Positions 1 through 3,431 of a stretch of 15,064 bases of DNA are shown piece after piece; position 1 is the first letter of the stretch; each line of letters opens with the position of its first letter. The position numbers and the translations under genes are program-made. The DNA comes from Chloroflexota bacterium (GTDB taxonomy: Bacteria; Chloroflexota; Limnocylindria; Limnocylindrales; CSP1-4). Where the stretch lies: assembly GCA_021814735.1 (NCBI GenBank), contig JAKAHX010000010.1, positions 1 through 15,064 of the forward strand, in the 5' to 3' direction. The notes under the pieces were generated by a model. It searched no databases, was not told the DNA's origin, and was given only the letters and a program-made list of their open reading frames with translations.

Positions 1-424
1 GCTCGATGGCCACCAGGCCGCCGTCGCCGGCCGCGAGATGCAGCATGCCCCATGGCGCAGGGTGCCGGACGAAGGCAGCCACGGGCCGCGCAACGTGCGG
101 CGCCGTCCCGATCACGGCGTGGTTGGCCGCCGTGCCTGGCGCGCGGGTGCTCCTGCCTGCCGGGGTGTCGCTGCGGCGGGGCGCCGTCCCACGGGCCCGG
201 AGCGCCCCCTGCGAGGCCGCTCCCGCGTCCTGATCCCGCGCCGGCGTCTCGCCGGACAGAGCCCGCACCACGTCGTGCGTCCGCCGAGCCGCCCCGACCA
301 GTTCATCCTCCAGGGCTGCCGGAGCCGGCAGCGGGTCGCCCAGGCGCAGGAGCCGCTCCAAGGCCGCCCGTCCAGGCCGGGCGCCTGGGCTGCCTGCTCC
401 GTCCCTCGGCCGCTGCGTCCTCAT
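1..424 (-). CDS. Partial O6-alkylguanine-DNA alkyltransferase-like protein with anti-sigma-like N-terminus (C-terminus off the left edge)
   Basis: An open minus-strand frame starts with ATG at 424-422, inside the sigma factor stop (ATGA at 421-424), and stays open to base 1, giving 141 codons. Residues about 20-50 (ALERLLRLGDPLPAPAALED and on) resemble the short Leu/Pro/Ala segment that opens many ECF-linked anti-sigma proteins. Residues 60-120 are a low-complexity Ala/Arg/Pro/Thr linker. Residues 121-141 (HPAPWGMLHLAAGDGGLVAI and on) match the first beta strands of Ogt/MGMT-type methyltransferases, typically written as TPLGPLxLAAxxxGLxxLxF. Such enzymes transfer the alkyl group from O6-alkylguanine irreversibly to a cysteine in a PCHR motif, which would lie beyond the window. 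The overlap implies translational coupling to the sigma gene. That the frame is coding is fairly sure; the domain call rests on about 20 residues; the anti-sigma role is inference. Confidence 0.72.
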   Translation of the reverse strand, partial: MRTQRPRDGAGSPGARPGRAALERLLRLGDPLPAPAALEDELVGAARRTHDVVRALSGETPARDQDAGAASQGALRARGTAPRRSDTPAGRSTRAPGTAANHAVIGTAPHVARPVAAFVRHPAPWGMLHLAAGDGGLVAIE

Positions 425-1212
425 CGCTCCGCCTCCATCCATGGCGCGAGGAGCGTGCGCAGCCTTCGCAGGCCCTGGCTGACATGCTGCCGGGCCGTGA
501 CGTCGTTGCACCCGAGCGCGGCCGCGACGTCGCGGTAGGGCCGGTCCTCCAGCACGCGCCGGACGACGGCCACTCGCTGCCGATCGCTGAGTTCGAGGAG
601 CGCGAGGCGGACGGCGTCCCGCAGCTCGGCCGCGGCGACGTGTTCGACGGGGTCGCCATCACCGGCAGGACGACGCCCCTCCCACCACGCGAGGGCCGCG
701 GCGGAGCCTCCGAGGGCCTCCATAGGAACGGTGTCGGTCCCGGCGTGCGCGACCGGAGGCGGCTCGTCACCGGCCGCCTGCCAGGGCTCGGTGATGCCGA
801 TGCCCGCGCGCACGCGCCGGCGTCGGTGCGCGTCACGCGCGAGATTGCCCGCGATGCGGTACAGCCATGCACGGACGTTGGCATCCGCGGCCAGGCGCGG
901 ATAGGCACGAACGGCACGGACACACGTGTCCTGGAGCAGGTCTGCGGCGTCCTCGGCCGTCGGGGCCAGGCGTCGGAGGTAGCGGTACAGCTCCGCCTCG
1001 TGCGCCGCGAGCACCTGGTCGAATGCGGGCACGACCGGCCCCGCGGGCGGCGTCGCAGCATCCGACGCATGGGGGGTCTCGTCACGGGAGGGCGGCGTCC
1101 CTGCCCGCGCCCGGTGGGTCCGTGCCCCTGACGGGAGCGGCGAGGACCGGGCCGGCCGGGGCGCCGTGGGCGGAAGCGTCATCACGCCCAGTGTGACGCG
1201 CCGGGGCGCCAT
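421..1212 (-). CDS. ECF-type RNA polymerase sigma factor (sigma-70 family)
   Basis: This is an extracytoplasmic-function sigma factor, which directs RNA polymerase to a stress regulon. With the ATG at 1212 it has 263 residues. Region 2 spans about 64-131: a helix beginning FDQVLAAHEAELYRYLRRLA, the DLLQDTCVRAVRAY core-binding stretch at 91-104, and the NVRAWLYRIAGNLARD -10-recognition helix at 112-127. Region 4 spans about 203-255, with LLELSDRQRVAVVRRVL followed by the helix-turn-helix YRDVAAALGCNDVTARQHVS. The linker between regions 2 and 4 (about 132-190) is long and acidic/Pro-rich, and the first 60 residues are Pro/Arg-rich and outside the fold. No Shine-Dalgarno sequence separates the ATG at 1212 from the one at 1182 (residue 11), so the start is uncertain. 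Its stop overlaps the start of the alkyltransferase-like gene (ATGA), which is its likely regulator or co-expressed effector. No sigma-factor C-terminal extension is present. Confidence 0.93.
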   Translation of the reverse strand: MAPRRVTLGVMTLPPTAPRPARSSPLPSGARTHRARAGTPPSRDETPHASDAATPPAGPVVPAFDQVLAAHEAELYRYLRRLAPTAEDAADLLQDTCVRAVRAYPRLAADANVRAWLYRIAGNLARDAHRRRRVRAGIGITEPWQAAGDEPPPVAHAGTDTVPMEALGGSAAALAWWEGRRPAGDGDPVEHVAAAELRDAVRLALLELSDRQRVAVVRRVLEDRPYRDVAAALGCNDVTARQHVSQGLRRLRTLLAPWMEAER

Positions 1213-1226
1213 TCGTGAAGGCTGCG

Positions 1227-1253
1227 AACGGGTGAAGGATCGTTCATCGTTCC
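1227..1253 (-). promoter_or_regulatory. Possible ECF-type (autoregulated) promoter of the sigma factor gene
   Basis: On the minus strand a GGAAC element (1253-1249), the usual ECF -35 core, is followed after 18 bases by CGTT (1230-1227), close to the common CGTC -10 core. Transcription would start near 1220, just before the ATG at 1212, giving a very short leader and making the ATG at 1182 a reasonable alternative start. The spacer is about two bases longer than the usual 15-17 and GGAAC is a short motif, so this is only a suggestion. Confidence 0.22.
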
Positions 1254-1317
1254 TTACCTGGCCGGCGGGGCGCCGTTTCAGATGGCTTTAAGGAACCGCG
1301 GGCAGCATGCACGACAT

Positions 1318-1379: not shown

Positions 1380-1439
1380 GTCCTCATCTCGAACCACACG
1401 CGGCCACCCGCGAGGGTGCCGCCTCACCGGGACGAAGGC

Positions 1440-2813
1440 ATGACCGCACCTGCTCGTACCCTCCAGCGCGTCCCCCTGCCCAGGGCGTGGTCGGTGCGCG
1501 CCAGCGACCTGGCCGCGCTCGCCATCGGGAACGCCGTCCTGATCGGCGCCATGTGGGTTCGCCATGGGCAGCTCGCCGAGCTCGGCTCTCCGTCGGGGAT
1601 CCTGATCGCGGCAGGGCAGCTGGCGGCCCTCTACGGCACCTACCTGGTGCTGCTGCAGCTGATCCTGATGTCGCGGAGCCCCTGGCTGGACCAGGTCCTT
1701 GGATCGGACCGCGTCGCCGCGCTGCACCGCTGGGTCGGCTTCTCGGGGATCCTGCTGCTGGTGGCCCACGGGGTCTTCACCGTCGTCGGCTACGGGCTGG
1801 CCACGGGCAGTGGCGTCCTCGCCGAGGCGCTCACGATCCTCACGTCCTACCCGTACGTCCTCATGGCCACCGCCGGAATGGCGCTCTTCGTAGCGATCGG
1901 GATCAGCTCCGTGGGGGCCGTGCGCCGGCGCCTGTCGTACGAGACCTGGTACGGGCTGCACCTGTACGCGTACCTGGCGATCGCCCTCGCCTTCCTGCAC
2001 CAGCTCGCGGTGGGGACCGACTTCACGACCGATCCCGTCGCGCGGATCTACTGGATCGCGCTGTACGTGGTGGCCGGCGCGCTGATGTTGATCTTCCGCT
2101 TCGCGCAGCCCGTGACACTCTCGCTTCGCCACCGACTGCGCGTCGCCAACGTGGTCGAGGAGGCCCCCGGGGTCGTCTCGATCTACATGACGGGCCGCGA
2201 TCTCGACCAGCTCGCCACGCGGGCCGGCCAGTGGTTCCGCTGGCGCTTCCTCACGCCGGAGGACTGGTGGCGCAGCCACCCGTTCTCTCTGTCCGCCGCC
2301 CCCAACGGCCGGTTCCTCCGTGTGACGGTGAAGGCACAGGGCGACCAGACGCAGAAGCTGCAGCGCGTGCGCATCGGGACCCCGGTCTTCCTCGAGGGGC
2401 CGTACGGCAACATGACCGGCGCCGCGCGGACCCGGCCCAAGGTGCTGTTGATCGCCGGAGGGATCGGGGTCACGCCGCTGCGTGCGCTCCTCGAAGAGCT
2501 GCCCGCCGCTCCCGGAGACCTGACGCTGGTCTACCGGGCCAGCCGCCCGCAGGACCTGGTCTTCCGGCGGGAACTCGAGCAGCTCTCGGCGATCCGCGGC
2601 GCCACGGTCCACTACCTCGTCGGCCGCCGCGGGACGCGTGCCATGCCCGGCGATCCGCTCGCCCCGGAGGCCCTTCGGCGCCTGGTCCCCGACGTGCGCC
2701 AGCACGACGTCTACGTCTGCGGGCCGCTGCCCATGATGGAGGCGGTCCGGCGCAGCCTGCGGGCGCTCCACGTGCCCGACGCCCAGGTCCACGACGAACG
2801 CTTCGCCTTCTGA
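1440..2813 (+). CDS. Ferric-reductase/NOX-like transmembrane NAD(P)H:flavin oxidoreductase
   Basis: This membrane protein of 457 residues would pass electrons from NAD(P)H via FAD and haem to an acceptor outside. The N-terminal half (about 20-222) has roughly six hydrophobic segments. Two pairs of histidines sit in membrane helices with the spacing known from FRE/NOX/STEAP haem proteins: H96/H110 (14 apart) and H174/H187 (13 apart). The C-terminal half is a ferredoxin-reductase module: a FAD-binding barrel with HPFSLSAAP at 280-288, an NAD(P)-binding GGIGVTPLRAL at 340-350, the VYVCGPLPMMEAV nucleotide motif at 424-436, and a terminal ERFAF. The ATG at 1440 is chosen because GAAGG lies just upstream; a GTG at 1416 would add eight residues. 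It is followed 18 bases later by a flavinylated-protein gene and then ApbE, so the electron acceptor is probably that protein. Whether the final substrate is iron, oxygen or quinone cannot be read from sequence. Confidence 0.93.
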   Translation: MTAPARTLQRVPLPRAWSVRASDLAALAIGNAVLIGAMWVRHGQLAELGSPSGILIAAGQLAALYGTYLVLLQLILMSRSPWLDQVLGSDRVAALHRWVGFSGILLLVAHGVFTVVGYGLATGSGVLAEALTILTSYPYVLMATAGMALFVAIGISSVGAVRRRLSYETWYGLHLYAYLAIALAFLHQLAVGTDFTTDPVARIYWIALYVVAGALMLIFRFAQPVTLSLRHRLRVANVVEEAPGVVSIYMTGRDLDQLATRAGQWFRWRFLTPEDWWRSHPFSLSAAPNGRFLRVTVKAQGDQTQKLQRVRIGTPVFLEGPYGNMTGAARTRPKVLLIAGGIGVTPLRALLEELPAAPGDLTLVYRASRPQDLVFRRELEQLSAIRGATVHYLVGRRGTRAMPGDPLAPEALRRLVPDVRQHDVYVCGPLPMMEAVRRSLRALHVPDAQVHDERFAF

Positions 2814-2831
2814 ACGCCGGAGTACCCGATC

Positions 2832-3431
2832 ATGCTTCCTCGTCGCGCCGTCATCGCGATCGCCACCACGGCGGTTGCCCTGGCTCTCCTCCTGAACTTC
2901 AAGACGTCACCCGCCCCGCTCCCCGGATCCATGTCCGCGCTCGTCGGGTCACCGGCCGTGGCGACCGCGCCAAGCGCACAGCCCGCCGGCGACGCCGCCG
3001 TCTCCGGGAGTTCGGGCAGCGCGGCCGGCGCGTCGTCCGGCAGCGGCGGGTCCTCCCCGTCGGGATCGACCAGCAGCACGGCCGGCGCGTCGTCCGGCAG
3101 CGGTGCGTCCTCTGCCGCCGGATCGAATGGCAGCGCGCAGGGAACCTCGCTGAAGAGCGGCCAGTTCACCGGGCCGGTCGTCCAGATCCCGTTCGGCAAC
3201 GTCCAGGTGCAGGTGACCATCCAGGGCGGGCGCATCGTCGACGTGCAGCCCCTCCAGATGCCGACCGCGCACATGCTCTCGCAGCAGATCGCCGCGTATG
3301 CGGCCCCGATCCTGCGCCAGGAGGTGCTCCAGGCGCAGAGCGCGCAGATCAACCTCGTCTCGGGAGCCACCTACACCAGCGAGGCATACGCACAGTCCCT
3401 GCAGGGCGCCCTCGATCAGGCGCTGGCATGA
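2832..3431 (+). CDS. Membrane-anchored FMN-binding domain protein (covalent flavin carrier)
   Basis: The product has 199 residues. Residues 5-22 form a hydrophobic N-terminal segment after MLPRR, so the protein is exported or anchored with its body outside. Residues 33-108 are a Ser/Gly/Ala-rich flexible linker containing a duplicated stretch. Residues 110-199 are an FMN_bind domain: GPVVQIPFGNVQVQVTIQGG, then RIVDVQPLQMP, ending in SGAT (177-180) followed by YTSEAYAQSLQGALDQAL. In this family FMN is attached by a phosphoester to the Thr of SGAT, here Thr180, by ApbE, whose gene follows with an ATGA overlap at 3428-3431. The residue three before SGAT that is often Asp is Asn174. Start: ATG at 2832 with CCGGAG about ten bases upstream. 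The protein probably receives electrons from the upstream reductase; its own acceptor is unknown. Confidence 0.92.
   Translation: MLPRRAVIAIATTAVALALLLNFKTSPAPLPGSMSALVGSPAVATAPSAQPAGDAAVSGSSGSAAGASSGSGGSSPSGSTSSTAGASSGSGASSAAGSNGSAQGTSLKSGQFTGPVVQIPFGNVQVQVTIQGGRIVDVQPLQMPTAHMLSQQIAAYAAPILRQEVLQAQSAQINLVSGATYTSEAYAQSLQGALDQALA
3022..3103 (+). repeat. Duplicated 25-bp direct repeat in the Ser/Gly linker
   Basis: The 25 bases at 3022-3046 are repeated exactly at 3079-3103, a period of 57 bases (19 codons), so the reading frame is kept. They encode most of a repeated TAGASSGSG/AAGASSGSG element in the flexible linker between the membrane anchor and the FMN-binding domain. Identity at the base level, including third positions, points to a recent in-frame duplication. 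Confidence 0.85.

Follow-up and report, generated by a model that had tools for sequence, protein, structure and literature searches.

Closest described systems

RsrA and ChrR are zinc anti-sigma (zf-HC2) factors of extracytoplasmic function (ECF) sigma factors, and their sensor is a redox zinc site or a cupin, not an O6-alkylguanine-DNA alkyltransferase (Ogt/MGMT, here MGMT). ECF sigma factors are described as being freed by conformational change, by partner switching, by proteolysis or by phosphorylation, and 6-O-methylguanine DNA methyltransferases are named as neighbours of group ECF122, which is listed under 'unknown mechanism' (PMC8999054). Ada is a suicide alkyltransferase that combines repair with signalling and induces its own production (PMC4437013), and ECF41 has a TGTCACA-n16-CGTC promoter and a near-single-operon regulon (PMC3426412). 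Here, we describe an ECF sigma factor gene overlapping a partner gene of the MGMT type in a Chloroflexota bacterium (GenBank assembly GCA_021814735.1, contig JAKAHX010000010.1). The window, meaning the whole stretch of DNA analysed, is the entire 15,064-base contig C301 of a fragmented metagenome-assembled genome (390 contigs, 79% complete).

The locus shares features with each of these systems and departs from each. As in ECF122 (type WP_057211282.1, Cellulomonas sp. Root930), an ECF gene lies beside an MGMT gene, and three Actinomycetota loci read in this work look like the ECF122 kind; however, the window's partner carries a longer two-helix segment and a linker, and the sigma factors of family f1, the window's included, form their own clade (SH-aLRT 99), with a weakly supported placement beside control and zf-HC2-type ECFs. 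Like Ada of E. coli, the partner is proposed to be a suicide alkyltransferase that both repairs and signals, but its full-length near-copy P0013 lacks the Ada zinc domain PF02805 and the AraC-type activator of Ada (Pfam reports PF01035 and PF02870 only) and the proposed output is a freed sigma factor. Gene order and overlap resemble those of RsrA and ChrR, and a zf-HC2-MGMT fusion exists at one distant locus (L194), whereas the segment in the window consists of two helices and has neither zinc motif nor family match. The ECF41 promoter resembles the KTCACR-N15-CGTC pattern found here, but a C-terminal regulatory domain is fused to ECF41, while the window's sigma factor ends after region 4 and its partner is separate.

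In the literature searched by title and abstract start, with most subscription papers outside its coverage, no anti-sigma role for MGMT was found, and the available part of PMC2587704 uses anti-sigma and MGMT wording only for separate genes. The comparisons below support sigma/anti-sigma control in which a suicide DNA-repair enzyme would be the sensor; the ECF-MGMT neighbourhood itself is already published (ECF122).

An ECF sigma factor gene overlapping an alkyltransferase gene

The open reading frame program reported a minus-strand frame at 421-1212(-) of 263 aa, which matches Sigma70_r2 (7.4e-15) and Sigma70_r4_2 (7.7e-11) in Pfam and the ECF model TIGR02937 (9.8e-26) in NCBIfam, all over cut-off. 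Pfam lists no region 3 match, so that regions 2 and 4 occur without region 3 as in ECF sigma factors, and the Sigma70_r4_2 match reaches residue 252/263 with no Pfam domain beyond it. Because the promoter-to-ATG distance is fixed and the relatives agree, translation likely starts at the downstream ATG given in Table 1 rather than at 1212. This ATG begins 12 bases past the CGTC element, and the sigma mRNA would therefore be nearly leaderless.

The overlap and the second frame running open to the window edge, both claimed in the original prediction, were borne out: the sigma stop TGA (421-423) and the partner ATG (422-424) share ATGA, and the partner frame (424-2, 141 aa) is open up to base 2. 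The partner thus lies directly downstream of the ECF gene and is coupled to it, as are its relatives' genes, with ATGA at the junction in 11/12 complete family pairs (window counted). Since the pair is found again on further contigs, both in the genus and in the family, it is not a product of chance.

Table 1. Features of the sigma-alkyltransferase locus in the window
Feature	Position	Strand	Basis and remarks
Predicted autoregulatory ECF promoter	1192..1219	(-)	-35 TTCACG (1214-1219), 15 bases, -10 CGTC (1195-1198); pattern and ATG before all complete pairs
ECF sigma factor gene	421..1182	(-)	253 aa from ATG 1180-1182; Sigma70_r2, Sigma70_r4_2, TIGR02937; start from fixed promoter-ATG distance
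ATGA overlap of sigma stop and partner start (translational coupling)	421..424	(-)	Read directly
Partner gene, first 141 codons (N-terminal segment, linker, MGMT domain start)	2..424	(-)	Open frame, cut at contig end; near-copy P0013
Conserved helical segment, candidate sigma-binding (anti-sigma) element	257..367	(-)	Residues ~20-56, AALERLLRLGDPLPAPAALEDELVGAARRT...; alignments, P0001 model
Variable low-complexity linker, segment to MGMT domain	86..256	(-)	Alignments
Opening part of MGMT N-domain (PVAAFVRHPAPWGMLHLAAGDGGLVAIE)	2..85	(-)	PF02870 match in P0013 begins at residue 124, inside this stretch; strands at same place in P0001 model

The 141-aa piece alone matches no family in Pfam or NCBIfam, so its visible end is not provable as MGMT from the window itself, and a PF01035 search of the window's genome returned no match at all. 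Identification rests on relatives, which were sought with both proteins in 101 genomes each, with their contigs then read, and by a protein-database profile search (2203 matches at E 1e-20 or better, the best 120 of 2203 being used). Among the matches listed, P0013 (313 aa) is identical to the window piece at 131/141 positions and extends through PF02870 and PF01035 with an IPCHRI motif, and all 11 complete same-family relatives (alignment A1) likewise have both domains and PCHR, the window copy ending before this motif. The predicted MGMT domain with its active-site Cys is thus present in the near-copy; of the profile checks proposed for the window piece, the MGMT part stood through P0013, and the piece on its own matched neither an anti-sigma nor an MGMT family. 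With the catalytic motif invariant in 53/53 aligned sequences, the partner family is assigned to the O6-alkylguanine-DNA alkyltransferases, and alkyl transfer is predicted. In a 61-genome sample, the eight genomes whose pair-type MGMT is complete in PF01035 (G001-G005, G007, G028, G029) encode no other MGMT; G046 carries a second one besides the pair-type copy. The linker varies among relatives from almost none to ~70 residues.

A piece cut at the contig end without a family match of its own could be a chance open frame, as high G+C content can produce, rather than part of a true fusion. The probability of such an artefact is negligible, as a chance frame is refuted by the near-copy P0013, the 11 complete relatives and the conserved overlap and promoter.

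A conserved promoter in front of the pair

The relatives share KTCACR-N15-CGTCACA upstream of the sigma gene, with the ATG at a fixed distance. The strict form KTCACG-N14-GCGTCACA gave one site per genome in 10/101 genomes, nine of the ten being the sigma promoter and the tenth lying in G016, and its reversed control gave 0 sites in all 101. When the -35 element was relaxed and the ATG included, 15 sites were found in 13 of the 177 genomes of the class. Twelve precede an ECF-MGMT pair, namely all 11 complete pairs from the protein search and that of G109, which was found by the pattern itself; two precede an EamA exporter gene (genus g23), and one a lipoprotein-like gene. The sites in G016 (electron-transfer flavoprotein-like gene, by eye) and G144 (lipoprotein-like gene, by eye) were considered as targets and taken as chance.

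Anchored on the sigma stop, [CTG]TCAC[AG]-N15/16-CGT[CT] was present in 43/49 ECF-MGMT loci: 12/12 in f1 (G109 by construction), 18/19 in f3-f5, 10/15 in other Chloroflexota and 3/3 in Actinomycetota. The reversed pattern matched 1/49 of these loci, and shuffles expect 0.65. A two-mismatch search of 13 genomes ranged from counts equal to the reversed control (G000, 20 vs 20) to about fourfold (G056, 35 vs 9), with G002 (43 vs 17) in between, and G016 also exceeded its control (24 vs 14) although no pair is known there; these counts neither show nor exclude a wider regulon beyond the operon.

The EamA-family exporter gene carries the promoter at the same ATG distance in L141 (G029 C12) and L142 (G056 C47), a possible second target in g23, and its counterpart in G109 keeps the -10 part alone. 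At window positions 1220-1300, stretches like CTTAAA..TCTGAAA and GTAAGG..TTCAC recur between the sigma and divergent ferric-reductase genes of genus g1 (by eye).

An N-terminal segment that accompanies the sigma gene

The conserved segment of the partner forms two helices in the predicted model of relative P0001 (block pLDDT 79-95); a fold comparison of this model covered mainly the MGMT part (residues 59-244) and was uninformative on the segment. Searched against a protein database, the N-terminal region alone returned only its own source protein. Twenty loci in named genomes encode relatives, several being the same contigs as in the other genome set. In 8 of the 20 the partner has the segment and an ECF gene immediately precedes it, the ECF of L113 being a 38-codon C-terminal remnant near the contig edge, and the remaining 12 have neither (stretch seen ≤4 kb each side). 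With shared ancestry ignored, Fisher's test gives p 8e-6 for this co-occurrence.

A quick tree was built from 123 MGMT domains and rooted on L122, L125, L126 and L127, with the segment label assigned by rank (P0001-P0061 and P0070). It shows three changes of the label, some forks being weak. A single group (SH-aLRT 99), which includes L115 and L116, holds 56 of the 63 segment-less rows and is nested among segment-bearing ones. L115-L121 adjoin a CopA gene, as do the ECF-segment-MGMT pairs of G028 and G059, and at this comparable locus the sigma gene and the segment are missing together.

These patterns bear on the explanation that the operon is an alkylation regulon in which MGMT is a mere target, the sigma factor being controlled by its amount, by proteolysis or by another protein and the segment serving, for example, protein stability. 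It draws support from the window segment's lack of a match to any anti-sigma family and from PMC8999054, which assigns ECF122 to the sigma factors that lack a cognate anti-sigma partner. We regard it as unlikely, because the segment tracks the sigma gene (8/8 vs 0/12), and is absent from the nested MGMT group, which has no sigma gene where the context was seen, and because a canonical anti-sigma domain occupies the same place in L194.

At the CopA loci, a palindrome, GCATACTCC..GGAGTATA, lies between the divergent CopA and MGMT genes in L115, L116, L117, L119, L120, L121 and L123, and is perhaps a metal-regulator operator common to the copper exporter and alkyltransferase genes.

Zinc anti-sigma and MGMT domains in one protein

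In L194 (genome G479), the partner overlapping the ECF gene consists of zf-HC2 (PF13490, 34.7 bits vs a cut-off of 22.2), PF02870 and PF01035. L194 provides the strongest indirect evidence that the sensing half of an anti-sigma factor can be an MGMT. The N-terminus of L198 bears CPDC and matches no anti-sigma family.

The fusion also bears on a role of the segment as an activator or tether, in which alkylated MGMT aids the sigma factor or the latter recruits the repair enzyme to DNA under transcription. Such a role is consistent with the variable tether between segment and enzyme and with methylated Ada, which acts by positive contact with RNA polymerase (PMC4437013). Against it stands the zf-HC2 domain in L194. 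Domains of this type at this operon position are inhibitors, and the gene overlap and order seen here are usual for sigma/anti-sigma pairs, so that we consider an activating or tethering segment improbable, slightly more so than the mere-target explanation.

The pair in other Chloroflexota and Actinomycetota

A survey of genomes for the same pair, proposed as a check in the original prediction, found it in the family, in other Chloroflexota and on three Actinomycetota plasmids. Ten further regions were chosen by ECF match, four with an adjoining MGMT match; nine are ECF-MGMT pairs in families f3, f4 and f5 of the class, and the tenth, L166, is another ECF of G098, whose pair sits on a different contig (L188). 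A sample of 400 genomes of the phylum was searched with an f4-type partner, and the best 30 loci, then the next 20 by rank, were examined. An ECF gene lies directly upstream in 29 of the best 30, seven of which repeat earlier loci, with a -4 overlap in 25/29; among the next 20, three have an ECF and 17 have none within the stretch examined. Coupled MGMTs carry ~28 or more residues before the first-strand motif (by eye; start codons unproven), and uncoupled ones mostly start ~8-20 residues before it (nearest Met), L197 being longer and L208, L211 and L220 unassignable.

A tblastn search of plasmids returned 267 records, of which the three with 60-80% identity were read, plus Nonomuraea. The Tsukamurella tyrosinosolvens plasmid has the order Ogt, ECF, Ogt, PF09859 oxygenase and AlkB-type oxygenase (PF13532); that of Rhodococcus antarcticus has ECF, Ogt, an annotated 2OG oxygenase and an Ada metal-binding protein (PF02805); and that of Arthrobacter sp. 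StoSoilB13 (unannotated, frames read here) has a PCHR-bearing first frame, ECF, Ogt, AlkB-type oxygenase (PF13532) and methyladenine glycosylase (PF03352). Related operons on three Actinomycetota plasmids therefore hold further alkylation-repair genes. The Nonomuraea region (L202) is unannotated and gave no match to the promoter. Separately, P0076 and P0081 (541 and 538 aa) combine MGMT with PAS_4 and GGDEF domains in one chain, which might connect DNA alkylation with cyclic-di-GMP.

Neighbouring genes and distribution of Ada

The pair is divergent from a ferric-reductase gene in six genomes (G000-G005), from CopA in two and from neither in three (G029, G046, G056). Because its neighbours differ in this way, the ECF-MGMT pair appears to be a self-contained module. 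In the window, positions 1416-3431 encode a membrane protein resembling ferric reductases (PF01794) and, after it, an FMN-binding protein (PF04205); six genomes of the genus have the reductase gene divergent from the sigma gene.

PF02805 was sought in the 177 genomes of the class, 107 of which make up the window's family. Within the family it occurs in 4/13 genomes with the pair (the G007 sigma remnant counted) vs 84/94 others, G101-G146 among the 94 having been checked for the pair by promoter pattern only. None was found in any of the eight genomes of the window's genus (seven with the pair; G000 included) or in G028. Of the 21 genomes in genus g3, 20 carry PF02805; the exception, G059, is the one with the pair.

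Proposed mechanism and points against it

The alkylation-released sigma switch put forward in the original prediction is supported as far as comparison goes by the architecture, the promoter, the co-occurrence of segment and sigma gene, the L194 fusion and the alkylation-repair genes in related operons. We consider it probable that the pair is an autoregulated alkylation-response operon with the MGMT partner as a putative one-shot anti-sigma sensor. The ECF sigma factor would transcribe its own operon from the TTCACG-N15-CGTC promoter, and contact with the N-terminal helical segment of the partner would hold it. The active-site Cys would take an alkyl group from DNA irreversibly, and the alkylated partner would change shape or be degraded, thereby freeing the sigma factor. 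Alkylated MGMT is known to be destabilised. The free sigma factor would feed back on the operon, giving new sigma factor and new alkyltransferase, and once the damage is gone, unspent partner would recapture it.

Several observations weigh against this reading. Neither Pfam nor NCBIfam recognises an anti-sigma domain in the window's 141 aa, the segment profile found no solved structure in the PDB better than E 0.18, and the f1 segment aligns in register with the shorter extension seen in partners of the f4/Actinomycetota type, but at an hhalign probability of 8%, too low to establish homology. L194 scores 5.9e-6 against the RsrA anti-sigma model, under the model's own cut-off, and L213 and L205, with HxxxCxxC at the same place, reach 19.4 and 16.0 bits for zf-HC2, also under cut-off. 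The promoter is absent in 6/49 loci (L185, L191, L194, L198, L204, L213), and the sigma factors of the zinc-type loci L194 and L213 may use another promoter. The sigma factors of f1 do not nest with those of the Actinomycetota type, and L022 has an ECF of the latter type with no MGMT within the 3.3 kb seen. In L073 (G007 C50 1-518), a segment-bearing MGMT has only 38 sigma codons in front of it, near the contig end, possibly a decayed sigma gene or an assembly join. As for Ada, all four g23 genomes hold both the pair and PF02805, and PF02805 is also lacking in ten f1 genomes where no pair is known, for which reasons the pair is rejected as a general Ada replacement; in addition, the genomes are incomplete, and many of the PF02805 matches are so weak and partial that some cannot be true Ada.

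Implications

The odds are about even that the partner is a covalent one-shot anti-sigma factor, in which each alkyl group removed would spend one enzyme and free one sigma factor, the enzyme being remade; damage would then be counted stoichiometrically and the repair stock refilled to match, with the anti-sigma element perhaps joined to MGMT more than once. Such repeated joining, by zf-HC2 in L194 and by helical segments elsewhere, may have built an Ada-like response on sigma release. Clear and cheap predictions follow for binding, for a Cys mutant and for the promoter. If the proposal is true, ECF release would have a new kind of input in suicide DNA-repair chemistry, ECF122 would gain a mechanism, and Chloroflexota and Actinomycetota would have a second principle, beside Ada, by which alkylation repair is induced.
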